From Candidatus Thalassospirochaeta sargassi (GTDB lineage Bacteria; Spirochaetota; Spirochaetia; UBA9216), in the NCBI GenBank assembly GCA_028532855.1, contig JAQQAL010000010.1:62001-126000 (forward strand): a DNA stretch of 64,000 nucleotides, read 5' to 3'. Of the stretch, positions 47,452 through 63,217 are shown piece after piece. Each line of letters begins with the position of its first letter. Positions within the stretch are counted from its first letter, which is position 1. The translations under genes and the position numbers were made by a program. The notes beneath the pieces were generated by a model. The model did not search any database. It was not told the origin of the DNA and saw only the letters and a program-made list of their open reading frames with translations.

Positions 47452-50100
47452 CTAACTGAGGTTACGTGCAGTTTCCTTTATCACGTAAACTTCAAACTGG
47501 TCTCCAACCTGAACATCAAGATAGTTTTCTATGCCGATACCGCACTCAAAACCCGATTCAACCTCACGGGCATCGTCCTTGAATCTCTTAAGGGACGATA
47601 TTTTGCCTGAGTGAATGATAACTCCGTCTCTGATAACGTGAGCGTTTTCATTACGTCTTACCTTGCCGGAAAGAACATAACAACCGGCGATAAGGCCAAT
47701 CTTCGGTACTTTGAATACATCCCGCACCTCTGCCGTTCCAAGTGTCTCTTCAGAGAGTTCCGGAGCAAGCATGCCTTCCATTGCTGCTTTTATATCGGCT
47801 ACAGCATCGTAGATGATGTTATATTTTCTGATATCAACCTTTTCTCGTTCGGCAAGTACAAGTGCCTTGGCTGTCGGTCTGACATGAAATCCTACAATAA
47901 TCGCATTAGAAGCGGAAGCAAGCGTAATGTCGTTTTCTACAATTGCTCCTGCCGCAGCATGAATTGGTGTAAGTTTAATCTCGTCGGTACTCAGTTTCTT
48001 AAGTGATGTAGTGAGTGCTTCTACAGAGCCGTGAACATCACCCTTGATAATAACCTTGAGTTCCTGTATTTCACCTTCCTGAATTGAATCGTAAAGGTTA
48101 TCAAGAGTAACCTTGGTGAGGTTCTCTGCTCTTCCCTGTTTTTCAAGTTCCTGGCGTTTTTCACCTACCATTCGGGCGGTTTTTTCATTCTCAGTTACCT
48201 GGAATGGTGCACCTGCATTAGGAATACCTGTAAATCCAAGTATCTCAACAGGGGTTGCAGGCCCTGCTTCGGTAATTTTATTACCCTTGTCGTCAAACAT
48301 TGCCCTGACCTTTCCCGGGTAAATGCCTGCGACAAAGCTATCGCCAATCTTGAGGGTACCGCGCTCAACAATAACAGATGAAACGATACCGCGCCCCTGG
48401 TCAACCCTGGATTCAATAACAGAACCTTCTGCTCGGCAGTCGTAATTAGCCTTGAGCTCAAGCAGTTCCGCCTGAAGGATGATTGTGTCTAGTAATTCCT
48501 TGACTCCGGTGCCTTTAAGGGCAGATATCTCATTAAATAGCGTAGTTCCACCCCAGTCTTCAGGAATAAGGTTATACTCGGAAAGCTGCTGCTTAACCCT
48601 GTCTACATTAGCTTCGGGTAGGTCGCATTTATTAACTGCTATGATAATAGGAACCTCAGCCTCTTTTGCGTGGTTGATAGCTTCAATTGTCTGGGGCATA
48701 ACACCGTCGTTTGCTGCAACAACAAGGATAACTATATCAGTAACCTCGGCTCCTCTGGCTCGCATCATTGTAAATGCTTCGTGACCCGGAGTATCAAGGA
48801 ATACGATTGAGCCCTGTTCAAGGTCAACCTTTGAAGCACCGATGTGTTGTGTTATTCCGCCGTGCTCGTCGGAAACGATGTCGGTCTTACGAATTGCATC
48901 TAACAGCTTCGTTTTACCATGGTCGACATGTCCCATAACTGTAACAATCGGCGGTCTTGGTTTGAGGTCTTCCTCGGAATCTTTTTCACTCTCAATAAGT
49001 GTTTCATCATAGAGAGACACTATCTTAACCTTACAGTTGTATTCACCTGCGAGGAGGCTGGCTGTATCAGAATCAATCTGCTGATTCATTGTTACCATCA
49101 TGCCCATGCCCATCAGCTTAGCGATAAGCTCTGATGCCTTCAGGTTCATTTTTCGTGCAAGATCTGAAACTGTTATAACTTCCATCATCTCAATCTCTGA
49201 AGGTACAGGATTGGTTTTCTGGATAGATTTCTTCTTTATCTGAAAGTCTTTTTCCTGCTGGAAATCGTTTTTCTTCTTATAATCAGTCTTCTTTTTGGTC
49301 TTGAATACCTTTCTGCCGGCAGATTTCTTATTTTCACCGCCGGGAGCTGGCATTCCACCGCCTGTACGATTCTGTCCCGGACGACCCTGACCCGGTCTAC
49401 CGGTTCCTCCCGGTCTTCCCTGGTATCCACCCTGCTGAGGTCTGCCGGTACCGCCCGGACGCCCCTGATAGCCGCCAGGTCTGCCCTGGTATCCGCCCTG
49501 ACGGTTGTCTGAACGTCCCTGGTATCCGCCCTGACGGTTGTCTGAACGTCCCTGGTATCCGCCCTGACGGTTATCTGAACGTCCCTGGTATCCGCCCTGA
49601 CGGTTGTCTGAACGTCCCTGGTATCCGCCCTGACGGTTGTCTGAACGTCCCTGGTATCCGCCCTGGCGGTTGTCGTTTCTATTTTCGCCGCGGTCTGACT
49701 GCGGCCGTGTTTTTTCTGTACCGGATGATGCTTTGGATTCAGGCGCTGCTTTATCCGGTGATTTAGCCGGTGCAGGCGCAGCCGTTTCTTCAGCTGTCGG
49801 TTTATTTGCAAAAATATCGTCTTGAGATCTGCCCTTGCGTGAACCCCCGATAGGCCTGTCGCCTTTCTGCTGTTTATTTCCTGCAGGCTTACTAACGGGG
49901 GAAGCCTTTGCAACCGGTTTTACGCCTTCCGACTTTGATTTGTCTGATGCAGGCACAGCCTTTGCAACGGGTTTTTTCTTTTTCTTAACGACAACAACCT
50001 TCTTCTTCTCCGCTTTAGAAGCGTCCGATTCGGCTGCCGGTTTTTTGTGTTTAATCAATGTAGCTTTGGGCATATTTTTCTTCTCAAGTTCTTCTGACAT
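47452..50100 (-). CDS. infB: Translation initiation factor IF-2
   Basis: GTPase that places initiator tRNA on the ribosome. The 882-residue protein has a long low-complexity N-terminus: Lys-rich at first, then Gly/Arg/Gln-rich tandem repeats at about 140-210. The IF2 N-domain follows (EVITVSDLARKMNLKASELIAKLMGMG), then the G domain with G1 GHVDHGKT, G3 DTPGHEAF and G4 NKCD, then domains II-IV (GTAEVRDVFKVPKIGLIAGCYV). It lies in the nusA-infB-rbfA order. Confidence 0.98.
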   Translation of the reverse strand: MSEELEKKNMPKATLIKHKKPAAESDASKAEKKKVVVVKKKKKPVAKAVPASDKSKSEGVKPVAKASPVSKPAGNKQQKGDRPIGGSRKGRSQDDIFANKPTAEETAAPAPAKSPDKAAPESKASSGTEKTRPQSDRGENRNDNRQGGYQGRSDNRQGGYQGRSDNRQGGYQGRSDNRQGGYQGRSDNRQGGYQGRSDNRQGGYQGRPGGYQGRPGGTGRPQQGGYQGRPGGTGRPGQGRPGQNRTGGGMPAPGGENKKSAGRKVFKTKKKTDYKKKNDFQQEKDFQIKKKSIQKTNPVPSEIEMMEVITVSDLARKMNLKASELIAKLMGMGMMVTMNQQIDSDTASLLAGEYNCKVKIVSLYDETLIESEKDSEEDLKPRPPIVTVMGHVDHGKTKLLDAIRKTDIVSDEHGGITQHIGASKVDLEQGSIVFLDTPGHEAFTMMRARGAEVTDIVILVVAANDGVMPQTIEAINHAKEAEVPIIIAVNKCDLPEANVDRVKQQLSEYNLIPEDWGGTTLFNEISALKGTGVKELLDTIILQAELLELKANYDCRAEGSVIESRVDQGRGIVSSVIVERGTLKIGDSFVAGIYPGKVRAMFDDKGNKITEAGPATPVEILGFTGIPNAGAPFQVTENEKTARMVGEKRQELEKQGRAENLTKVTLDNLYDSIQEGEIQELKVIIKGDVHGSVEALTTSLKKLSTDEIKLTPIHAAAGAIVENDITLASASNAIIVGFHVRPTAKALVLAEREKVDIRKYNIIYDAVADIKAAMEGMLAPELSEETLGTAEVRDVFKVPKIGLIAGCYVLSGKVRRNENAHVIRDGVIIHSGKISSLKRFKDDAREVESGFECGIGIENYLDVQVGDQFEVYVIKETARNLS
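49486..49683 (-). repeat. 33-bp tandem repeat inside infB (six near-identical copies)
   Basis: Six copies of a 33-bp unit begin at 49486, 49519, 49552, 49585, 49618 and 49651. They differ by only one or two bases and encode the 11-residue unit NRQGGYQGRSD. The copies are contiguous and in frame, so this is a coding repeat and not a CRISPR array. The product is an RGG-like, Arg/Gly/Tyr-rich disordered region. Confidence 0.95.
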
Positions 50101-50111
50101 AGTCCCTTCTT

Positions 50112-51665
50112 CTATTCTTCGTCTTCGTCTTCATCTGCTTCTTCTATTTCAAAGCTGATACCGACCCCGCAACTGGGGCAGGCGGTCATATCGAGGGTGA
50201 TGGGTGCGCCGCATTCAGGGCATTCATAACCTTCATCCTCTTCAGAATCTTCAGATTCGTCGGAGGTTTCTTCATCATCATTCTCTTCTGCAGGATCTGA
50301 TGAAAACTCTTCTTCGCTATAATCATTTTCAGAAGATTCGTATTCTTCTTCAATATAATCTTCTTCTTCTTCGATAATGTCAACATTGTCCGCGATAATT
50401 GATCTTATCAAATCTACATCCTCATCTGAGAGGTCGCTGAAATTAGTAAGCTCATCATCGGATAATGCAATAAGGTCTTCTATAAGTTCAATGTTGTGTT
50501 CTTTTAGAACTGATATGATTGAATCAGTAATTCCGGGAAGTTCGGAAATTGACGTGATCTCTTCAGAATCGTCTACTTCTCCGAAGAGCTCTGAAACTGC
50601 ACGTCTTGTATCAACAGCAATGTCCATTTCTTCGAACTGTTCTTCAGTCTTGACATCAATGTTCCAGTCGGCAAGCCGATTTGCAAGACGAACGTTAAGT
50701 CCCTGTTTTCCGATTGCAAGAGAAAGCTGACTGTCGCCTACTATAGCAAGAGCTTGTCGTTTCGCTTCATCAAGTACGATAATATCGTTTACTTCTGCTG
50801 GGGAAAGTGCGTTCTTGATAAAGACACGCGGGTTAACATCATATTTGAGGATATCGATCTTCTCACCCTCCAGTTCACGAACTATAGCCTGGATTCTAAC
50901 CCCCTTCATACCAACACATGCGCCCACCGGATCAACATCGTCACGATTTGAATAAACTGCGATTTTTGTCCGGTAACCCGGTTCCCGGACTATTTTGAAT
51001 ATCTCAACTGTCTTGTCATAGATTTCAGGTACTTCAAGTTCAAATACTCTCTTAACAAAATCGGTATGTGTTCTGGAAAGTACAATCTGCAGCCCGGAAG
51101 GAGTCTTGTTAATCTCATATATAAGGGCCTTAATTCTGTCATTAGGTCTGTAGACCTCTCGAGGCGACTGAAATCTCTTCGGAAGGATACCTTCTGTTTT
51201 GCCGAGATCAACATAGATGTTACCGTTTTTTTCTCTCTGGTAATATCCAATAATCATTTCTCCGAGTTTCTCGTTATACTCAGAAAAAAGAGTGTCTTTT
51301 TGAATCTCTCTAAGAGTCTGTTTTGCCTTTTGCTTGGCGCTCTGAACAGCTACCCGGTCGAATTCCAGCGGATCGATAGGTATTAGCAGCTCGTCACCTA
51401 TTTCGCCCTCCTCGTTTAACACGAGAGCATCTTCGAGAGCTATTTCAGCAACAGGATCATAAACGTCTTCTACAATTACCTTCTGTGCGTATAATTCAAC
51501 TTCGTTTCCGTCTTCTGAAAACTGTACAACAGCGTTGTCCACTGTTCCGAAAGTCCGCTTATAAGCAGCCAGGAGAAAATCTTCTATAGTTTTAATTACA
51601 AGATCTTCGGATATTCCCTTGTCCTGTACTAATTGTTTAATTGCTTCAGCTATGCCTGACGACAT
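50112..51665 (-). CDS. nusA: Transcription factor NusA with C-terminal acidic linker and zinc ribbon
   Basis: Binds RNA polymerase and nascent RNA to control pausing, termination and antitermination. The 517 residues comprise the N-terminal polymerase-binding domain, an S1 domain (~130-200), two KH domains (~230-345; VGACVGMKGVRIQAIVRELEGEKIDI, LAIGKQGLNVRLANRL) and one helix-hairpin-helix domain (~375-425). An Asp/Glu-rich stretch of about 55 residues follows, and then a C4 zinc ribbon (Cys482, 485, 496, 499) with an acidic end. The ribbon is not part of standard NusA. It starts 17 bp after rimP. Confidence 0.96.
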   Translation of the reverse strand: MSSGIAEAIKQLVQDKGISEDLVIKTIEDFLLAAYKRTFGTVDNAVVQFSEDGNEVELYAQKVIVEDVYDPVAEIALEDALVLNEEGEIGDELLIPIDPLEFDRVAVQSAKQKAKQTLREIQKDTLFSEYNEKLGEMIIGYYQREKNGNIYVDLGKTEGILPKRFQSPREVYRPNDRIKALIYEINKTPSGLQIVLSRTHTDFVKRVFELEVPEIYDKTVEIFKIVREPGYRTKIAVYSNRDDVDPVGACVGMKGVRIQAIVRELEGEKIDILKYDVNPRVFIKNALSPAEVNDIIVLDEAKRQALAIVGDSQLSLAIGKQGLNVRLANRLADWNIDVKTEEQFEEMDIAVDTRRAVSELFGEVDDSEEITSISELPGITDSIISVLKEHNIELIEDLIALSDDELTNFSDLSDEDVDLIRSIIADNVDIIEEEEDYIEEEYESSENDYSEEEFSSDPAEENDDEETSDESEDSEEDEGYECPECGAPITLDMTACPSCGVGISFEIEEADEDEDEE

Positions 51666-53008: not shown

Positions 53009-55591
53009 TCAGTTTTTATATTTTTCTTTCCATGCGGCAATGGTATTCAATGCCTGAAGAGGTGTGCAGTTATTTAAATCAATGCCCATAACCTCGCTTT
53101 TAAGCATCTCCTCAGCCGCAAATAATTCCACCGTTTTTGATTCGCCTGAATCTGGTGTTCTACTGCCTGCTTTTTGTTCCCTTTCCTCGAGGCTGCTTTG
53201 TATTTCTTCTGCCCGGGCAATTACTTCCTCTGGCAGACCCGCAAGGCTTGCAACATGGATACCGTATGAGGCATCGGCTGGACCGTCTTTGATTCTTTTT
53301 AGAAACACAATCTCTCCGTGGTTTTCACGAACATCGAGTGACAGGTTCTTTAATCGTTTATGTTCAAGCGTTGTAAGTTCATGATAATGGGTTGCGAACA
53401 GGGTCTTTGCTTTGATTTGGTTAAGAAGATATTCAGATACCGCCCAGGCAATGGACAGGCCGTCGTTTGTCCCCGTTCCACGGCCTACCTCATCCATAAT
53501 AACAAGGCTTCGAGAGCTGGCCGAGTTTAGAATGTTCGCGGTTTCATTCATTTCTACCATAAAAGTTGATTCGCCGCGCGCCAGGTTATCGGATGCACCG
53601 ACCCGGCAGAATATACGGTCCACAATTCCAATAACAGCGCTGTCGGCGGGGATGAAGCTTCCGGCTTGGGCCATGAGAATAATCAGCGCATTCTGGCGCA
53701 GATAGGTTGATTTTCCGGCCATATTCGGTCCGGTTATCAGGGCGAAGCTGGTTTCGGCATCATTGAGACTCAGGTTGTTCGGGATAAACTCTCCCGAAGG
53801 AATATTAGCTTCAACAACCGGATGTCTGCCGTTAATTATTCTGCATTCACTTCCGTCGCTGATAGTGGGTTTCACCCATCCGTATTTGGTCGCGGCTGAT
53901 GCAAGAGAAGCGAGGCAGTCTATTTCAGAAATATAGGCTGCCAAACTTAGCAGGATCTCTATCCTGATTTTTATTTGATCGCGCACCTCTAAGAACAGCT
54001 GTTTTTCGAGCTCTACTGCCTTGTCGGATGCTGAATTAAGGTTTGTTTCAAGTTCAATCAGTCTGTCAGTTGTAAAGCGCTCGGCCGCAACAAGGGATTG
54101 TCGTCGAATGAAGTGTTCAGGCACAAGATCAAGGTTCGTCTTTGTAACCTCTATAAAGTAGCCTATTATCCTGTTATATCGAATTTTCAGCGATGTTATG
54201 CCGGATTCCTCTTTTTCCTGTTCGAGGTATGCAGTGAGAATTTCCTTGCTGTGCTGTTTGAGATTTTTCAGCTCATCAAGTTCCATGCTGTATCCGCTCT
54301 TTATCATCCTGCCTTCGGTTAGTAATGTAGACGGGTCTTCATCAATTGAGTCATCAAGAAGTTTCAGTATTTCAGCTGCCCCTGTTGCAACCTCATTGCT
54401 CAGGGTCCCCGGGCCGTCATTGGATTCCCATTCAACAAGCAGTTCGTTGAGTTCGAAGGCGGAGCGAAGCGAGTTTCGGACTGCAAGCAGGTTTTTAGCG
54501 TGGGCCTTGTCCATGCCTATCCGCGAACTTAATCGTTCGATATCGAGTATAGACGAAAGTTTTTCATTTATTCCAGACAGAAGAATCTGGTTATGATAAA
54601 GAAACTCTACCCGTGTCTGTCTTGTTATGATTTCAGATTTTTTCAACAGCGGATGCAGCAGCCAGTTTTTCAGCCTTCGCGAACCCATTGCAGTCCTGGT
54701 CTGATCAATTACCTCCAAAAGAGAGTAACGCTTGCCTCCGTCCTGCAGGTTTCCGGTAATTTCGAGATTTTTAAGGCTTGATTCATCAAGCAGCAGAAAG
54801 TCTTCATCTCGAATGATTCGCAGCCGTCGTATATGGGGAAGCAGGCTTTTTGATGTGTCGGCAATGTATTCAAGAATAATTCCGCAGGAAAAAACCGCCG
54901 GGTCATAATCATTTATACCAAAGCCTTTTAAGGTCATTAAATTGAATTGCTTCTTAAGCAGCATAGAGGAGTTTTCGATATCGAAGGCCCAGTCGGGGTA
55001 GCGATTTACAAGCAGCTCTGTCCGCTCGTCTAAAATCCTGGCCACCTCATCATTCTCCTCCAGCAGGGATTGCTGAATAAGAAGTTCACCGGGGGAAAGG
55101 CGTCGCAGTTCACGCTTAAGGATGTCGGCAGCCTTGGATGCATCGAAAGCCGAGGCAAAGAACTCGCCGGTTGATAAATCGGTATATGCAATAGATAGCG
55201 AATCGCGGCAGATCCCTGCTGCAAAAAGATAGTTGTTTCTGTCCTTATCAAGGAAGTCTTCATCAACGACGGTACCGGGCGTTATAATCTCGACAACCTC
55301 ACGCTCGGCAATTCCTTTTCCGCCTTCCGGCATTTTTGTCTGTTCGCAGATTGCAATCTTTTTACCGGCTTTTAGAAGCCTGGCGATGTAGGAATGGGCG
55401 GCATGATAGGGAATTCCGCACATGGGTATATTGTGCCGTTTCGTCAGTGTCAGGTTGAGAATTGAAGATGCTTCTTTCGCATCGGAAAGAAACATCTCAT
55501 AAAAATCTCCAAGCCTGAAAAACAGGATGGAATCGGTGTGTGATTGTTTGATGCGCTTGTATTGGCGCATCATTGGGGTATCGGCCGGCAT
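53009..55591 (-). CDS. mutS: DNA mismatch repair protein MutS
   Basis: Recognises mismatches and recruits MutL. The 860-residue protein has the mismatch-binding Phe-x-Glu (RLGDFYEMF), the connector, lever and clamp regions, and the ABC ATPase (Walker A GPNMAGKST at about residue 622, the signature region NLARGESTFMVEMNETANIL, Walker B LVIMDEVGRGTGTNDG). The C-terminus (LNTIAAWKEKYK) is the family's usual end. It is upstream of comF in the same orientation, separated by 34 bp. Confidence 0.98.
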   Translation of the reverse strand: MPADTPMMRQYKRIKQSHTDSILFFRLGDFYEMFLSDAKEASSILNLTLTKRHNIPMCGIPYHAAHSYIARLLKAGKKIAICEQTKMPEGGKGIAEREVVEIITPGTVVDEDFLDKDRNNYLFAAGICRDSLSIAYTDLSTGEFFASAFDASKAADILKRELRRLSPGELLIQQSLLEENDEVARILDERTELLVNRYPDWAFDIENSSMLLKKQFNLMTLKGFGINDYDPAVFSCGIILEYIADTSKSLLPHIRRLRIIRDEDFLLLDESSLKNLEITGNLQDGGKRYSLLEVIDQTRTAMGSRRLKNWLLHPLLKKSEIITRQTRVEFLYHNQILLSGINEKLSSILDIERLSSRIGMDKAHAKNLLAVRNSLRSAFELNELLVEWESNDGPGTLSNEVATGAAEILKLLDDSIDEDPSTLLTEGRMIKSGYSMELDELKNLKQHSKEILTAYLEQEKEESGITSLKIRYNRIIGYFIEVTKTNLDLVPEHFIRRQSLVAAERFTTDRLIELETNLNSASDKAVELEKQLFLEVRDQIKIRIEILLSLAAYISEIDCLASLASAATKYGWVKPTISDGSECRIINGRHPVVEANIPSGEFIPNNLSLNDAETSFALITGPNMAGKSTYLRQNALIILMAQAGSFIPADSAVIGIVDRIFCRVGASDNLARGESTFMVEMNETANILNSASSRSLVIMDEVGRGTGTNDGLSIAWAVSEYLLNQIKAKTLFATHYHELTTLEHKRLKNLSLDVRENHGEIVFLKRIKDGPADASYGIHVASLAGLPEEVIARAEEIQSSLEEREQKAGSRTPDSGESKTVELFAAEEMLKSEVMGIDLNNCTPLQALNTIAAWKEKYKN

Positions 55592-55601
55592 CCGTCAGAG
55601 A

Positions 55602-56141
55602 TTAATTGCCCGATTCTCTTGCAGCCTGCCATCGCAGACGTTCTAGAACAATGTCGGTAACATCAATCTCATGGTTATACCAGAGAATGTTGGGGTCCTG
55701 TGTTCTCATTATCATAGAAAAACCTTCAGATTCGGCAATATATGTGATTGCATCGAGAATTTCTGCGGTAAAGGTAGAAGACTGGTATACTCCCTGAATC
55801 TTGTTGTTGATCCTCGTCTGCCAGATTGAATGAAATTCTTTAAGGTATTCCTGCTTATTGTAGATCTGATCATCAAGTTTTAACGCTTTACGCTCATCGT
55901 TATCATTTTCCGCTTCGAGCTTTTCAAGCTGCAGTTCATTTATCTCATCGAGGATTTCGTCTTTTCCCTCGTCGTATTTTTCTCGCATGCTGTCGATTTC
56001 ACGCCAGGCGGATGATTCCGCAAAATAATCCTCAACTATTCGTGAAAAGTTTACAATACCTATCTTGGAGAGCTGCTCGGCGGAAAGGCTGAATACTGAT
56101 ACTGCAAGTATCAGGGCTGTTAAAAATATACGCTTTGTCAA
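55602..56141 (-). CDS. OmpH/Skp-family periplasmic chaperone
   Basis: Binds unfolded outer-membrane proteins in the periplasm. The 179 residues comprise a signal peptide (ALILAVSVFSLSAEQ), the family opening IGIVNFSRIVEDYF, two long charged helices that form the tentacle arms, and the C-terminal beta/helix segment. It is placed directly after bamA, as in many Gram-negatives, with an AGGAG ribosome-binding site. It is somewhat longer than E. coli Skp (161). Confidence 0.9.
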   Translation of the reverse strand: MTKRIFLTALILAVSVFSLSAEQLSKIGIVNFSRIVEDYFAESSAWREIDSMREKYDEGKDEILDEINELQLEKLEAENDNDERKALKLDDQIYNKQEYLKEFHSIWQTRINNKIQGVYQSSTFTAEILDAITYIAESEGFSMIMRTQDPNILWYNHEIDVTDIVLERLRWQAARESGN

Positions 56142-56180: not shown

Positions 56181-58868
56181 CTAAAAATAATCAAGATCAA
56201 AGGTTATGACAAGATCAAGACCCCACGGTGAATCTTCATCATCCGGAACAAAGAGATCATCTCCCTGCTGCCAGGTAAATACTCCATCCTCATACTTCGC
56301 TCGCTTGACGAGGAAAAATGATATAGGAAAGCTTGGTATATCAAGCTGTAATCCGGTACCGAGGCTGAAGTAGTAATCGTCTATCGACATATCCTTCATA
56401 TCCGATAATTCTTCCCATAGGCCAGTTCCGCTTATGAATGTATTCCAGGATACAAGGCCTTCGGCTAGCGGGGTTGTAAAATCAACAACGAGGTCAAAGA
56501 GAGCCTTGTTACCGTAATCAGTATCCCAGCCCCTTGCTATGAACATGCCGTCTATATAAAGCTCGTCACTGCTTGTTGTTGTATTGCCCCAGCTCCATGA
56601 TCCGTCCGAATAGTAATACTGAGGCAGAATCATTGAATACTGGGCATGAATCCCCATGACAGTCGAGAAGTTCCAGACGTCAGTTACCGGGAAGTCGAAG
56701 AGTTCAAGATAGAAATCAGCGTCGGTAGTAGTTTTAATATAATCCTTGCTTCCAAACAGCAGCCCGCCCGTGTATGTCAGGGTTTCCTTAAGGATGAAAC
56801 CCTTCGTGGGCGAATAGATCAAATCTCTTGTATCCCAGCTGGCGGTAAGCCAGAGTTTATTTGTAAGCAGAAGCGTGTTCAGGGCATCTCTGATGTCTTT
56901 ATCAAAGGGGCGGTAGAGAGAATCGTCATATGTCAGGTAAGAAAGTGCCGTGCTTGCGCCTGTTCCGAGGCTTACCCTGCCATTGGACGTATGAACCGTA
57001 TAACCCCCGCTTGCGGATAATGATGCGGTGTAGGATTCATAATCCATAAGGTATTCTGAGTCTATGCTCTCATCATTGTCCATAGCGTAGTCATAGTCGG
57101 TCTGGATTGTCTCATTTTCAGCCAGTTCTTCAAGCTCATCATCGGTATAATCATCAGTGTCTACGGCATCACCGGCGGAATATGAGTTGTCATCTGCATC
57201 GTCGGCCCAGACCCAGTGGCCGTCATAGGGATCGGGAACAACCTGATCGTTTTCAGTATCGTCGTCATCATCATCATAGTCATCATCGTCGTCATCAAGA
57301 CTGAAGATGGGCAGAAGTATGTCCTGTTCAACAGATGTGTAGGAATCATGGCTGAATGAAAGTTCGACACCGCCGGAAATCCGTCTGTCGAAGAGCCAGC
57401 TGTCTGTGTATGAAAAGGATAACTCCTGACTTGACGATGAAAGTTCAAGCCCTACACTCAGATCCTTTCCTTCTCCCTTGAAGTTGGATTCGTTCCACTT
57501 CAGGAAAAGGTAGACCGGAATAGAACTTGAGGTATCAGTAAATGTGAGACCGAACTGTACATCGGTGGTATTTTGTTCTTCTACATTTATCACGACGTCC
57601 ATAAGTCCTAATTCGCTTCCATAGGGCATTTCAGGTACTACCGAGGAGAAATAACGCGTGTTGTAGAGGTTGTTGAGGCCCTCCATTATTGCGGATTTAC
57701 TGAATACATCACCTACTTCAAGCGGAATTTCACGAAGAATAACTTCATCCTTGGTTTTTTCATTCCCGTTTATGATTATGTTTTCAATATGGGCGCGATT
57801 TTTTTCGGTTATGATAATCTGAAAGGAAATTTCATTAGTTTCATCGTTTCGGATTTCCTTTGTGGCCATATTATTATAGATGTAACCGTCGTTGTAGTAG
57901 ATGTCTCCGATCGCTATAAAGTCTGATTCCAGCCTTGATTTATTGATACTCTTTCCAACCGTCGAAGATGTTACCTTGAGAAGTTCTTCATCAGAAAAGA
58001 GGGTGTTACCTTCGAATTCAAAACCTCCGAATAGCCATTCTTCACCCTCTTCAAGATAGAATACGATATCTATGTAGTTTCGTTCTTCCTTATTCTCAAC
58101 CTCTGCTTCAGTAATAACGGCATCAATAATCTTTATATCAAGAAAACCGGAATCGGAATAATACTTACTGATGGCGGCCTTGTCCTTTTCAATCAGCCCT
58201 TCCTGGAAAATTCCTTTGGAAAAGAAGGTTTGTTCCTTTGATTCGAGCTGACTCTTGAGTGTATTATCGGATGCGAAGGTGTTGCCGGAAAAGGATATTG
58301 AATTGATTCTTGTCTGTGTTCCTTCGACAATACTAAAAAAGAGTTCGACAAATCCTTCTTCAACGGCATCTTCAACACTGCTTTCTACAGTGACGTCAGG
58401 ATATCCTTCATCAATATAGAGCTCCTTGATTGCCGCCTCATCCATTCTAATCCTGGCATTATTTACTATATCATCCTGCTTGAGGCTGATAACCTCAAGG
58501 ATTTTCGATTTGGTAATACTCAGGTTCCCCCGGAAAATGATGTTCTTGATCAGGGGTCTTTCGGTAACTGTGAATTCTATAATAACCTTTTCTCTGCTCC
58601 CGTCCATGGGGACAGCGTTTGCAGTGAAATTATCGAAATAATTTAAAGAATACAATTTACTTTGAAGATCCCAGAACAGGGTGTCTGTGAAGTTCTTACC
58701 GATAAACTGATCTGTTATGCCGTCCAGTTCTGACTGATCGATATTTACCAGTCCAATAAATCTGATCTCGCTGATAGGTTTATCGACATACCATTCCGCA
58801 GATTGCGCAAATGCTGCTGTAGACAATGTGATAACTGCAATAAAGGCAGATAGAAAAACTTTCCGCAT
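56181..58868 (-). CDS. bamA: Outer-membrane assembly factor BamA with acidic loop insertion
   Basis: Core of the machine that inserts beta-barrel proteins in the outer membrane. About 895 residues: signal peptide (FIAVITLSTAAFAQS), five POTRA domains (~25-415) and a 16-strand barrel ending in the Phe signal YF with aromatic alternation. I choose ATG 58868, 5 bases after AGGAG and beyond the tamB stop. At about residues 523-613 there is an insertion rich in Asp/Glu, including two runs of six Asp. By position it lies between strands 5 and 6, predicted extracellular loop L3. Neighbours tamB and ompH support the role. Confidence 0.95.
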   Translation of the reverse strand: MRKVFLSAFIAVITLSTAAFAQSAEWYVDKPISEIRFIGLVNIDQSELDGITDQFIGKNFTDTLFWDLQSKLYSLNYFDNFTANAVPMDGSREKVIIEFTVTERPLIKNIIFRGNLSITKSKILEVISLKQDDIVNNARIRMDEAAIKELYIDEGYPDVTVESSVEDAVEEGFVELFFSIVEGTQTRINSISFSGNTFASDNTLKSQLESKEQTFFSKGIFQEGLIEKDKAAISKYYSDSGFLDIKIIDAVITEAEVENKEERNYIDIVFYLEEGEEWLFGGFEFEGNTLFSDEELLKVTSSTVGKSINKSRLESDFIAIGDIYYNDGYIYNNMATKEIRNDETNEISFQIIITEKNRAHIENIIINGNEKTKDEVILREIPLEVGDVFSKSAIMEGLNNLYNTRYFSSVVPEMPYGSELGLMDVVINVEEQNTTDVQFGLTFTDTSSSIPVYLFLKWNESNFKGEGKDLSVGLELSSSSQELSFSYTDSWLFDRRISGGVELSFSHDSYTSVEQDILLPIFSLDDDDDDYDDDDDDTENDQVVPDPYDGHWVWADDADDNSYSAGDAVDTDDYTDDELEELAENETIQTDYDYAMDNDESIDSEYLMDYESYTASLSASGGYTVHTSNGRVSLGTGASTALSYLTYDDSLYRPFDKDIRDALNTLLLTNKLWLTASWDTRDLIYSPTKGFILKETLTYTGGLLFGSKDYIKTTTDADFYLELFDFPVTDVWNFSTVMGIHAQYSMILPQYYYSDGSWSWGNTTTSSDELYIDGMFIARGWDTDYGNKALFDLVVDFTTPLAEGLVSWNTFISGTGLWEELSDMKDMSIDDYYFSLGTGLQLDIPSFPISFFLVKRAKYEDGVFTWQQGDDLFVPDDEDSPWGLDLVITFDLDYF

Positions 58869-58882
58869 GCTTTCTCCTCGAA

Positions 58883-61800
58883 TTAATATGAAAAGCGCCA
58901 TGATAAACCAAGGCTGGTTTTACTAAGACCCTCTACAGGATCCTGAAAATCAGGATAGAAGTTTAATTCAACATTGGCAACAGGCCCTTCCCATTCCAGC
59001 GTAATTTCGCTGTCAATGTTCATATCAAGGTCTTCAGAATAACCTGTATCATTATAAAGATCAAACTGAATCATACCCTGTAAGAATATATCATCTGAAA
59101 AATACTTTCCCAGGTAAAGGGTTGTATTATCGAAATAATCACCGAAATTTATATCCGAACTGTCGTCTGATGAAGAAAGAACCGCACCCTCAAGAAAATT
59201 ACTTAAAAATGATGTTCTGATTGAAAGAAGATCAAGCCCCAGGCTCGATTTCAAACCGTCTTCGATACTTTGCATAAGAGTAAACTGGGTAAATATGTCA
59301 GCAGCCAGAAGCCCGGCTTCTTCGTACAGTGCAAGACTGTCATCGTTATTAAAACTGTCAAAAATATTACCGCCCACAATAGAAATAATTTCAGAGGTTG
59401 AAAGTGACGGTTCGGATTCAAACCGGGGAACGAAGGAGCTTAGAGGAGATGGATCTACGATGAGGTAAATTTTAGTCATTTCTCCTTCAGAGCTGATATC
59501 CCTTATTTCAGCAATAGTATTCAGTAAGGGATCAATTGTTGTTGTTGTGCTGTTAAAGTTGATGCCGCCTTCTTTAATGTAGAAATTTCTTTCAAAATAA
59601 AAAATTTCACCGCCCTTCATTGTCATGTCGCCAATAAGTTCAAGGGAACCGGGGCCGTCGAAACTGCAGTGGAGTTTGTTTCCTACAGCAACGTAGGCTT
59701 CAAGTACCGGTACTTCAAGATTCGGCCAAAAGAACTGATTATTTTCTCCTGTAGTTATATTCAGATCACAGGTAACAAGCTCGATGGGGTTTTTGCCCAT
59801 TTCTTTAACATACGCTTCATTTATCATGAATGTACCCTCAGAGGCTGTGATATCGCCGGAAACGTGCATATGTTGAAAGTTACCGCTTAGGCTGATGTCG
59901 CCCTCACCGAATGCATCTAGATATAAAGGTTTCACGAATAGAAATGTTGAGATTGCCTCACCCGGGGGAATATTAATATTTATCTCATAATTACGTGGTA
60001 GCCACCTTTCCATTGCAGCGGTTATATTCACATAGGCCAGGCCGTTCTCTGTTTTAACCCGGGTTGCCGGTACATTCAGTTCTTTTCCGCTTAGGAAAAA
60101 TGATGTCGTTAGCGGTTCGGTCCGTTCAGCCATCACAGGCGGTTTGAAGATTACATCGTGAAAATCAATCTGACCGTAGAAGTCCGGGTCATTCAAAGGG
60201 CCCTGCAGCCTGAATTTGCCCGTGAAGCCGCCTTCATAAAAGCCCATATCAACAAATTCCAGGTTATCGAATTCATAGCTCAGCTCACTGACTGTGGCGT
60301 TTATATTTCCTTCATTTATAGTTCCTGAGGCTGCTGCTCTGACTGGAAAGGGCGCAAGGGCGTCTATTGTAAAGTATCCGTCACCGAAGAAACTGCAGGC
60401 TATTTCGTTATCAATGCCGCCGGTGATGGTTATCAGTTTTTCACGTTTATCCAGGTTTAATTCCCACGGCTCCTTATATTCTTCATTCAGTTTAATGCTG
60501 TTTACGAATAAATCAACACTGTAGTCATCTTCGAGTAAGACCGCTATATCAGAGATTTCATCGATATTCGCTGTCTTTGCCTTGATGTTGACGGATGAAG
60601 TCATTTGGAGCATTCCGGCTGAGCTTGTGAAACGTCCGCCGAGGTTGTGTATACCGTTATCGAGATTGAAAACGCCGGTTACATCAGTCAGGGCGTAATC
60701 ACTGTATTCCGCATTAATTTCCTCGATTTTCAGTTTTAAATCTTCATATGAAAGTGCGGCGTTAAGGCTGACATACTGCCCGTTAAGGTTTGCGTCATTG
60801 CTGTTGAGTGTTGCCCTGAGCTGAGGTGAGCCCAGACTTCCTGCCAACTTTACATTTCCGGATATTGCGCCGTCGATTGGTGATTCTTCAAGAGCACGCC
60901 GGATTGGGAAACCGGAAAAATCAATGCTGCCTTCGAGAATCCCCTCGTTGAAGCCGAGAAGAAGTCTGTAGTTTTCATTTGTTTCATCGGAATTTATGTT
61001 GAAATGGAGCCTGCCTGACGGCCCGGGCAAGATGCTGTTCAGTATTACACTTCCGCCGCCTGTGAGCTGCGTGTTCCTGTCTGTATAGTTGAGTTTGTAG
61101 ATATTGCCGCCATCTTCGGAAAGGATTGCGGCAAGGCTGATGCCGGCCTGACCGAATCCGGTCTGCAGACCGTTAATTGAAAGATTATTCAGCAGGATAC
61201 GCCAATTATCCGGGGATGAAAAATATCCGGCGATGTTTGTACTGATAAATGCAGTGTTTTCGGCTGAATTTATGGGAAGTCTCTCAGTCTTCAGACTGAA
61301 GCTGTTCATTTCTCCAATGGAGAAAAGATTGAATTTAAGTCCGTAGTCCCCCACAAGGCTAAGGGTTCCCGACGGGGAATACACTCCGGAGGTGTTCACG
61401 GCTGCCCCGTTTAAATCAAGTCCGGTCTGCACAATGATGTTTCCCGTTTCGCTTATATCAGTTGATATCTTTCCGTTCAGGTTGTAATCATCCCAATTAA
61501 GTACTATATCCGACAGTCTTGCCCCGCTGTTATTACCTGAGAGCGCGAAACTGAGGTTTCTGCTGTCATTTTCTCTGTCTCTGATTATAATATCCGGTGA
61601 GGCAAAGGCCAGCTGGCTGAAACTGCCAGAGAAGAATAGTTCGGTTGTGAGCTCGAACTGTTCAAGTGCTTCGGGCAGGCTGAATGAAACAGGGAGAGCA
61701 TCGAGCACTGGAAAAACGAGGAGGTTGTTTATATCGAGCGATGCCTGTAGATAAGGATCACCGCCAAGCTGGACGATTCCCTCGCAATAAACGGAATCAT

Positions 61801-63217
61801 TACCCTCAGCCCCTGTTATAACATCGGAACTTAAAACAAATTCAAGGTTTTCGCTGTAAGGGCTCAGTTCAGCCTGCAAATTGGTTAGGAGAAGTCCATT
61901 GATGATAATGCTTCCGGAGGATAGTCTGTAGGCTCCGGAAGCTGATGTATTTATCTGCATTGAGGTTCTCAGGTTTATGTCCATGTAATCTATTCCGGGG
62001 ACATCAAGCCGGCCGTTTATTATTGGTAGTTCGTTTGTAAAATTGACGGTACCCTGAAAAGCTGCTGAGCCGGGTGCCGAAGAAACCCTTGATTCGGCAA
62101 TATTAATAATTCGATTTTGTCCATTGGCGGAGAGAGATGCATTGACGGGGGAATCTAGGAGACCGGCAATATTTAAAATATTCAAATCTGCGCTGTAGCT
62201 TAAATCATCATCTTCTCTGATATATCGCAGATAGGCCTCACCGTTGACAGACGCATCCAGGAAATTGCTGAAATCATTAAGAAAACCGCTGGTTTCGAAA
62301 TACTTATTAAAAATGAAATCCTGTGCCTGCAGGGACGCGTTGAAAACTCCACTCTCAAACTGAGCTGAAATATCAAGATCAACCGGGATGTTATCACCCG
62401 TCTTTACTATCTTCAGGCTGCCTGATTCATCATACTGGAGATTCCATGCGATTCTATCAATAGAGACTATATTGCTATGAAAGTTTTTGGTTCGCAGGTT
62501 GACATCCGCCCAGCTGAAATCCGAAGAAAGCCTGCCGTTCAGGCTCAGTTCGGTCTCCAGATTCAGGCTGTTGAATGGCAGGCTGTCTACCGGTACTGCT
62601 GCTGAAGTATATATGTTCGACCTGAGCGAAATAATCAGGTCGTTTTCCGGTGATTTACTCAGGGTGAAGAAGATTTTGCTGAGCTCTGCTGAAATTTCTT
62701 CGGTTATGATTTTTATGCTGAGATTGCGCCCCTTGATAAAGAAATCGTCAGGCAGGAGGAGTCCGTTTTCTGACTGTAGATTGTTTCCGTTTCCGGAGAA
62801 TCCCTCAAGAATATCAATAAGTTCGGCATTGTGGGTGCTGTTATAGCTGACCCTGCTGTTTACGAGCAAAAGCCCTCTGAACGCATTGAGTGGATTTTTA
62901 GACCTGTATCTGAATAAATCAAAGCTCAACCTCAGTCTTTCAATCTCCAGAAGGGGTTCCTGGGGTTCTTCAGTCGACAATATTGTAAAGTCTCTAATTT
63001 CAAATGCGTGCAGGATTGATGGTGATATACTGCTGTATGTGATTTTATGTCCCAGTCTGTCTTCGAGCAATTCGATTGTTCTGATTTTACCATCGGTTAT
63101 AATTTTCCCGAGGCTTATTCTTACAGGAAAAACCAGAATTATCAGTGAGCTTAGTAGAATTGCCGTTATTAGTAGTTTAAAGCCGAAGCTCCTGGTAAAC
63201 TCAGGTTTCAGAACCAT
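58883..63217 (-). CDS. tamB: TamB/DUF490-family bridge protein
   Basis: A very large inner-membrane-anchored periplasmic beta-taco protein linking inner and outer membranes (outer-membrane protein assembly and/or phospholipid transfer). The 1444 residues have one N-terminal helix (LLITAILLSSLIILVFPV), long repetitive beta-strand sequence, and the conserved C-terminal DUF490 region (GEGDISLSGNFQHMHVSGDITASEGTFMI; EIISIVGG; LGLSWRFSY). In B. burgdorferi the homologue next to bamA was reported to bind BamA. No tamA is seen, so BamA probably serves as its partner here too. Confidence 0.93.
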   Translation of the reverse strand: MVLKPEFTRSFGFKLLITAILLSSLIILVFPVRISLGKIITDGKIRTIELLEDRLGHKITYSSISPSILHAFEIRDFTILSTEEPQEPLLEIERLRLSFDLFRYRSKNPLNAFRGLLLVNSRVSYNSTHNAELIDILEGFSGNGNNLQSENGLLLPDDFFIKGRNLSIKIITEEISAELSKIFFTLSKSPENDLIISLRSNIYTSAAVPVDSLPFNSLNLETELSLNGRLSSDFSWADVNLRTKNFHSNIVSIDRIAWNLQYDESGSLKIVKTGDNIPVDLDISAQFESGVFNASLQAQDFIFNKYFETSGFLNDFSNFLDASVNGEAYLRYIREDDDLSYSADLNILNIAGLLDSPVNASLSANGQNRIINIAESRVSSAPGSAAFQGTVNFTNELPIINGRLDVPGIDYMDINLRTSMQINTSASGAYRLSSGSIIINGLLLTNLQAELSPYSENLEFVLSSDVITGAEGNDSVYCEGIVQLGGDPYLQASLDINNLLVFPVLDALPVSFSLPEALEQFELTTELFFSGSFSQLAFASPDIIIRDRENDSRNLSFALSGNNSGARLSDIVLNWDDYNLNGKISTDISETGNIIVQTGLDLNGAAVNTSGVYSPSGTLSLVGDYGLKFNLFSIGEMNSFSLKTERLPINSAENTAFISTNIAGYFSSPDNWRILLNNLSINGLQTGFGQAGISLAAILSEDGGNIYKLNYTDRNTQLTGGGSVILNSILPGPSGRLHFNINSDETNENYRLLLGFNEGILEGSIDFSGFPIRRALEESPIDGAISGNVKLAGSLGSPQLRATLNSNDANLNGQYVSLNAALSYEDLKLKIEEINAEYSDYALTDVTGVFNLDNGIHNLGGRFTSSAGMLQMTSSVNIKAKTANIDEISDIAVLLEDDYSVDLFVNSIKLNEEYKEPWELNLDKREKLITITGGIDNEIACSFFGDGYFTIDALAPFPVRAAASGTINEGNINATVSELSYEFDNLEFVDMGFYEGGFTGKFRLQGPLNDPDFYGQIDFHDVIFKPPVMAERTEPLTTSFFLSGKELNVPATRVKTENGLAYVNITAAMERWLPRNYEININIPPGEAISTFLFVKPLYLDAFGEGDISLSGNFQHMHVSGDITASEGTFMINEAYVKEMGKNPIELVTCDLNITTGENNQFFWPNLEVPVLEAYVAVGNKLHCSFDGPGSLELIGDMTMKGGEIFYFERNFYIKEGGINFNSTTTTIDPLLNTIAEIRDISSEGEMTKIYLIVDPSPLSSFVPRFESEPSLSTSEIISIVGGNIFDSFNNDDSLALYEEAGLLAADIFTQFTLMQSIEDGLKSSLGLDLLSIRTSFLSNFLEGAVLSSSDDSSDINFGDYFDNTTLYLGKYFSDDIFLQGMIQFDLYNDTGYSEDLDMNIDSEITLEWEGPVANVELNFYPDFQDPVEGLSKTSLGLSWRFSY

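Follow-up and report, generated by a model that had tools for sequence, protein, structure and literature searches.

An extremely acidic predicted extracellular loop in the BamA of Candidatus Thalassospirochaeta sargassi, with a class-wide skeleton and a short species-specific poly-Asp insertion

The bamA locus

The window (the whole stretch of DNA analysed here, 64,000 nucleotides from Candidatus Thalassospirochaeta sargassi) carries a bamA gene encoding a protein of 906 aa (56181..58901, minus strand, to which all other features given below also belong). A sequence-only reading of the same DNA had already named the product BamA, and this identity holds, as its score against the BamA equivalog TIGR03303 is 429.7 bits (curated cut-off, 297.15) and Pfam finds POTRA (four stretches), POTRA_2 and Omp85 in the ORF, with the POTRA domains preceding the barrel. 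BamA is an essential protein whose surface loops, in spirochaetes, are targets for both drugs and vaccines. Upstream of bamA lies tamB (58883..63217; ORF list and Pfam), which marks a BAM/TAM neighbourhood, and on the other side are an OmpH/Skp-family gene (55602..56141; ORF list and Pfam) and mutS (53009..55591; Pfam). The order tamB-bamA-ompH-mutS is also kept in L002. The start of the bamA ORF overlaps the end of tamB (58883-58901), and Met12 (MRKVF...), which is followed by a signal-peptide-like stretch, is probably the likelier true start.

Elsewhere in the window, NusA (50115-51665) carries a C-terminal stretch whose net charge is -42 over 90 residues, together with a Pfam match at 479-502 that resembles a zinc ribbon. 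The adjoining ORF (47452-50100), which we read as IF-2-like, contains near its N-terminus about six near-identical copies of the 11-residue, Arg/Gly/Gln/Tyr-rich GRSDNRQGGYQ (repeat at 49463-49674), whose charge is opposite to that of the NusA tail.

The acidic stretch and its position in the barrel

Residues 533-624 of BamA (57030..57305) form a hyperacidic stretch in which, by residue count, 40 of 92 residues are acidic (31 Asp and 9 Glu) and none is Lys or Arg; in fact, the run free of Lys and Arg extends over residues 508-641. Near the beginning of the stretch is DDDDDDYDDDDDD (residues 536-548; 57258..57296), in which two runs of six Asp are separated by a single Tyr. The recount thus agrees with the figures originally reported, and the acidic stretch is a real observation. 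An assembly error was considered as its source and rejected, the BamA ORF being intact. Chance origin is also set aside, since (GAY)6 runs are found in only two places of the 3.84-Mb genome, both of them inside the bamA tract, and since 90-residue windows as acidic as this one (-40) are rare, the NusA tail being the only other case in a sample of 88 ORFs from this genome.

The position of the stretch in the barrel was assigned with an alignment of E. coli K-12 BamA (L172) and 32 spirochaete sequences, the window included. In it, the stretch is preceded by the counterpart of E. coli GGRLFYND and followed by that of SYGTDVTLGF, two strands that we take to be 5 and 6 in the numbering of the published structure. 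By homology, the stretch is thus assigned to extracellular loop 3 (L3), whose region runs from H518 to Y621 (57039..57350), as the sequence-only reading had placed it. In Omp85 barrels the loop after an odd strand is extracellular, and it is because L3 follows such a strand that it is predicted to face outwards.

A long loop common to the class Spirochaetia

The wider comparison comprised 169 sequences, made up of the window and 168 of 171 loci, of which 149 belong to the class (window included) and 20 are outgroups from the phylum. Three loci were left out before counting: L001 is the same gene as the window, L002 is the same as L004, and L003 is from Bacteroidales. As some genomes are present twice (e.g., G155 as L054 and L085), there are 142 distinct class loops besides that of the window, and the sequences read are part of the 377 class genomes with a match.

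Alignment of these loops indicates a skeleton of conserved residues inherited across the class. It consists of Q526-D527 (57321..57326), conserved in 84% and 90% of the 142 loops, P556-D557-P558 (57228..57236; 96%, 91% and 85%) and, just before strand 6, M619-x-Y621 (57039..57047; 99% and 98%). A TDYDYA block at residues 601-606 (57084..57101) is conserved to a lesser degree (Y603 in 79%, A606 in 62%). The window has QD, PDP and MxY in this order between strands 5 and 6 and belongs to the group that we define here as the long class L3. Among the 20 outgroups, Asp is found at the 527 site in one and at the 557 site in four, and the Met in three, whereas the Tyr is present in 16, so that this last residue probably predates the rest of the skeleton. 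Most outgroups have a short L3, with 14-19 residues from H518 to M619 in 15 of them and 26-49 in the other five, against a class median of 51.

Within this set the loop of the window is extreme in two respects. It ranks first of 169 in length (152 aa in the compared region; the next has 144) and in acidity, with a net charge of -43, followed by -31 in a member of the same genus (L006), when the class mean is -6.8 (s.d. 6.3). The spacer between QD and PDP has 28 residues in the window, the class median being 14 and the next largest value 19 (n=149), and that between PDP and MxY, with 60 residues, ranks sixth.

The species-specific part

The sequence-only reading had described an insertion of about 90 residues, a size that must be reduced considerably. 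Most of the stretch is common to relatives, as L3 is present in all six members of the family compared, and the species-specific part amounts to the 11 residues of the poly-Asp core (539-549; 57255..57287), which alone are missing from all six. Nine of the 40 acidic residues lie within this gap, and at the site of one more none of the relatives is acidic; the others are matched by an acidic residue in one or two (11 residues), three or four (13) or five or six (6) of the relatives. The variation expected among relatives was indeed observed, both in this insertion and in the net charge of L3, which in the six relatives is -23, -14, -33, -23, -18 and -12. It had also been proposed that an acidic stretch uniform and common throughout the phylum would speak against its being distinctive; the loop itself is common in the class, but its acidic excess is not, nor is that excess uniform. 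The alignments thus present the BamA of the window as the extreme member of a class-wide loop, in which only the short poly-Asp insertion is special to the species.

The DNA of the tract mixes GAT and GAC codons, and its longest pure triplet run is GAT x3. This composition fits an in-frame gain of triplets, with synonymous change either after it or alongside it, and is not switch-like. A phase- or length-variable tract that switches the surface charge, as suggested previously, would draw some support from an imperfect repeat with 9- and 12-bp period at this place; however, no long pure repeat whose slippage would change the frame or the expression was found, GAT and GAC are scrambled, and any change of whole triplets keeps the frame, so that we regard this suggestion as exceedingly improbable. 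(GAY)6 runs are also found in three of six sister genomes, at sites other than bamA. In one of these genomes (G001), for instance, a protein that we read as RpoC-like (L175) has a run of nine Asp in its C-terminal tail.

The same features bear on a neutral origin, in which triplet slippage would have lengthened a permissive, disordered loop whose acidity is tolerated and functionless. The absence of the 11-residue core from every family relative, its GAY-rich repeat and its location in a spacer that ranges from 3 to 28 residues among the 149 class sequences are all as this explanation would have it. By contrast, 30 of the 40 acidic residues have an acidic match in at least one relative, the PDP-MxY spacer is acidic without any repeat, and the loop of L006 is strongly acidic too. 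We therefore consider a purely neutral hypertrophy unlikely, albeit worth keeping in mind.

Acidity of the proteome and of neighbouring proteins

L3 could also be acidic as part of a salt-adapted acidic proteome, with nothing particular to BamA. The sampled proteome is not unusually acidic and is close to that of most relatives: the median pI is 5.53 in the window genome (88 ORFs) and 5.39, 5.51, 5.56 and 5.80 in four relatives, with 7.37 in a fifth of which only 8 ORFs were available, all these samples being small (8 to 58 ORFs outside the window genome). Neighbouring proteins are, in favour of this explanation, more acidic than their counterparts in L002, with net charges of -108 vs. -61 for part of TamB, -14 vs. 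-8 for OmpH and -25 vs. -18 for MutS, and because of these three proteins part of the L3 acidity may belong to a wider acidic shift. Nevertheless, the samples from the genus are alike (median pI of 5.39-5.56 in four genomes) and not halophile-like, and the remaining loops of the window BamA have net charges of only -6 to +1, which makes a proteome-wide cause of the loop's acidity very improbable.

Possible roles of the acidic loop

We favour, with some confidence, the reading that the stretch is the hypertrophied acidic middle of the class-wide L3 and acts as a flexible polyanion that loosely holds divalent cations. According to this model, the class Spirochaetia would have inherited a long L3 with QD after strand 5, PDP in the middle of the loop and MxY before strand 6, and the two variable spacers between these conserved residues would both have turned acidic in this genus. 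In this species, the QD-PDP spacer would then have gained about 11 codons in frame, most of them for Asp, and so reached twice the class median. The skeleton would anchor L3 over the mouth of the barrel, while the spacers, flexible and exposed to the solvent, would maintain a strong negative charge on the exposed side of BamA and leave its role in outer-membrane protein insertion unchanged. As the sole structural model, obtained with AlphaFold2 from three sequences (the window, L002 and L003, the latter from Bacteroidales), has a mean pLDDT of 39 and is too weak to use, we infer the lid-like position of the skeleton and the flexibility of the spacers. Diffuse association with cations is a plausible role of L3, which may also serve as a charged shield.

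A specific calcium site is a narrower version of cation binding. DxDxDG calcium-binding loops are known from TSP3, dockerin and EF-like domains, and L3 might be a loop of this type built on the PD motif. A DxDxDG-like motif that ends on the conserved PD is in fact present in four class members (L058, L136, L143 and L145). These are, however, only four of 169 sequences, about one chance match would be expected in such an acidic region (a rough estimate, made with no computed control), and the regular expression finds no match in the window. Additionally, Asp or Asn occupies the would-be ligand positions in 27-37% of 114 distinct contexts, so that these positions are not conserved (the context scan used a PD[PGN] pattern, which 16 of the 149 class sequences lack). 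Since the window has no motif and the ligand positions are so variable, a specific calcium site is unsupported and, in our opinion, improbable. A more ambitious extension of the polyanion model is equally speculative, and we would assign it little likelihood: here the QD/PDP/MxY skeleton would form a lid common to the class, and its acidic spacers, by sensing or storing divalent cations at the surface, would tune how the BamA barrel opens, this species having an extreme form of the lid.

Comparison with known BamA loops and significance

The closest likeness is with BamA of T. pallidum (TP0326), whose ECL3 likewise lies between strands 5 and 6. In the sections available of one study, this loop is longer in an AlphaFold3 model than in earlier models and varies between strains, with six of nine differences between Nichols and SS14 located in it (PMC12369335). 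In a treponeme-like sequence (L179, added later and outside the 169), the segment that aligns with the PDP region contains the published T543 and R545 (PMC12369335, same sections). With the offset of 6 set on these two residues, F656, Q605 and K612 agree with the published numbering and D841 and L589 do not; the predicted epitope at 533-550, as given in those sections, then maps to the PxPYTSRE segment of L179 (PMC12369335). Despite the shared position, the treponemal loop is far shorter and not acidic, and L179 has LPHPYTSREQW without spacers.

Pathogenic treponemes also have, according to the text available of another study, a poly-serine tract in ECL7 of BamA (PMC8407342), which is present in loop 7 of L179 as well. 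The two cases are alike in that one spirochaete lineage bears a homopolymer-like tract in a surface loop of its BamA, but they differ in residue (Ser vs. Asp) and in loop (7 vs. 3). Loop 3 of E. coli BamA, at the homologous position, also contains several Asp, although it has about 15 residues and no QD/PDP/MxY skeleton. In the accessible part of a paper on the Borrelia BAM-TAM system, the loop terms searched for do not appear (PMC13382580), and titles and opening lines of abstracts yielded no literature on an acidic, Asp-rich or motif-bearing BamA loop.

The class-wide skeleton would distinguish the constrained part of a long L3, at QD, PDP and MxY, from the spacers that are free to vary between these residues. 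In turn, this species would show what length and charge such spacers can attain, and this may be useful for grafting loops into the BamA of laboratory E. coli.
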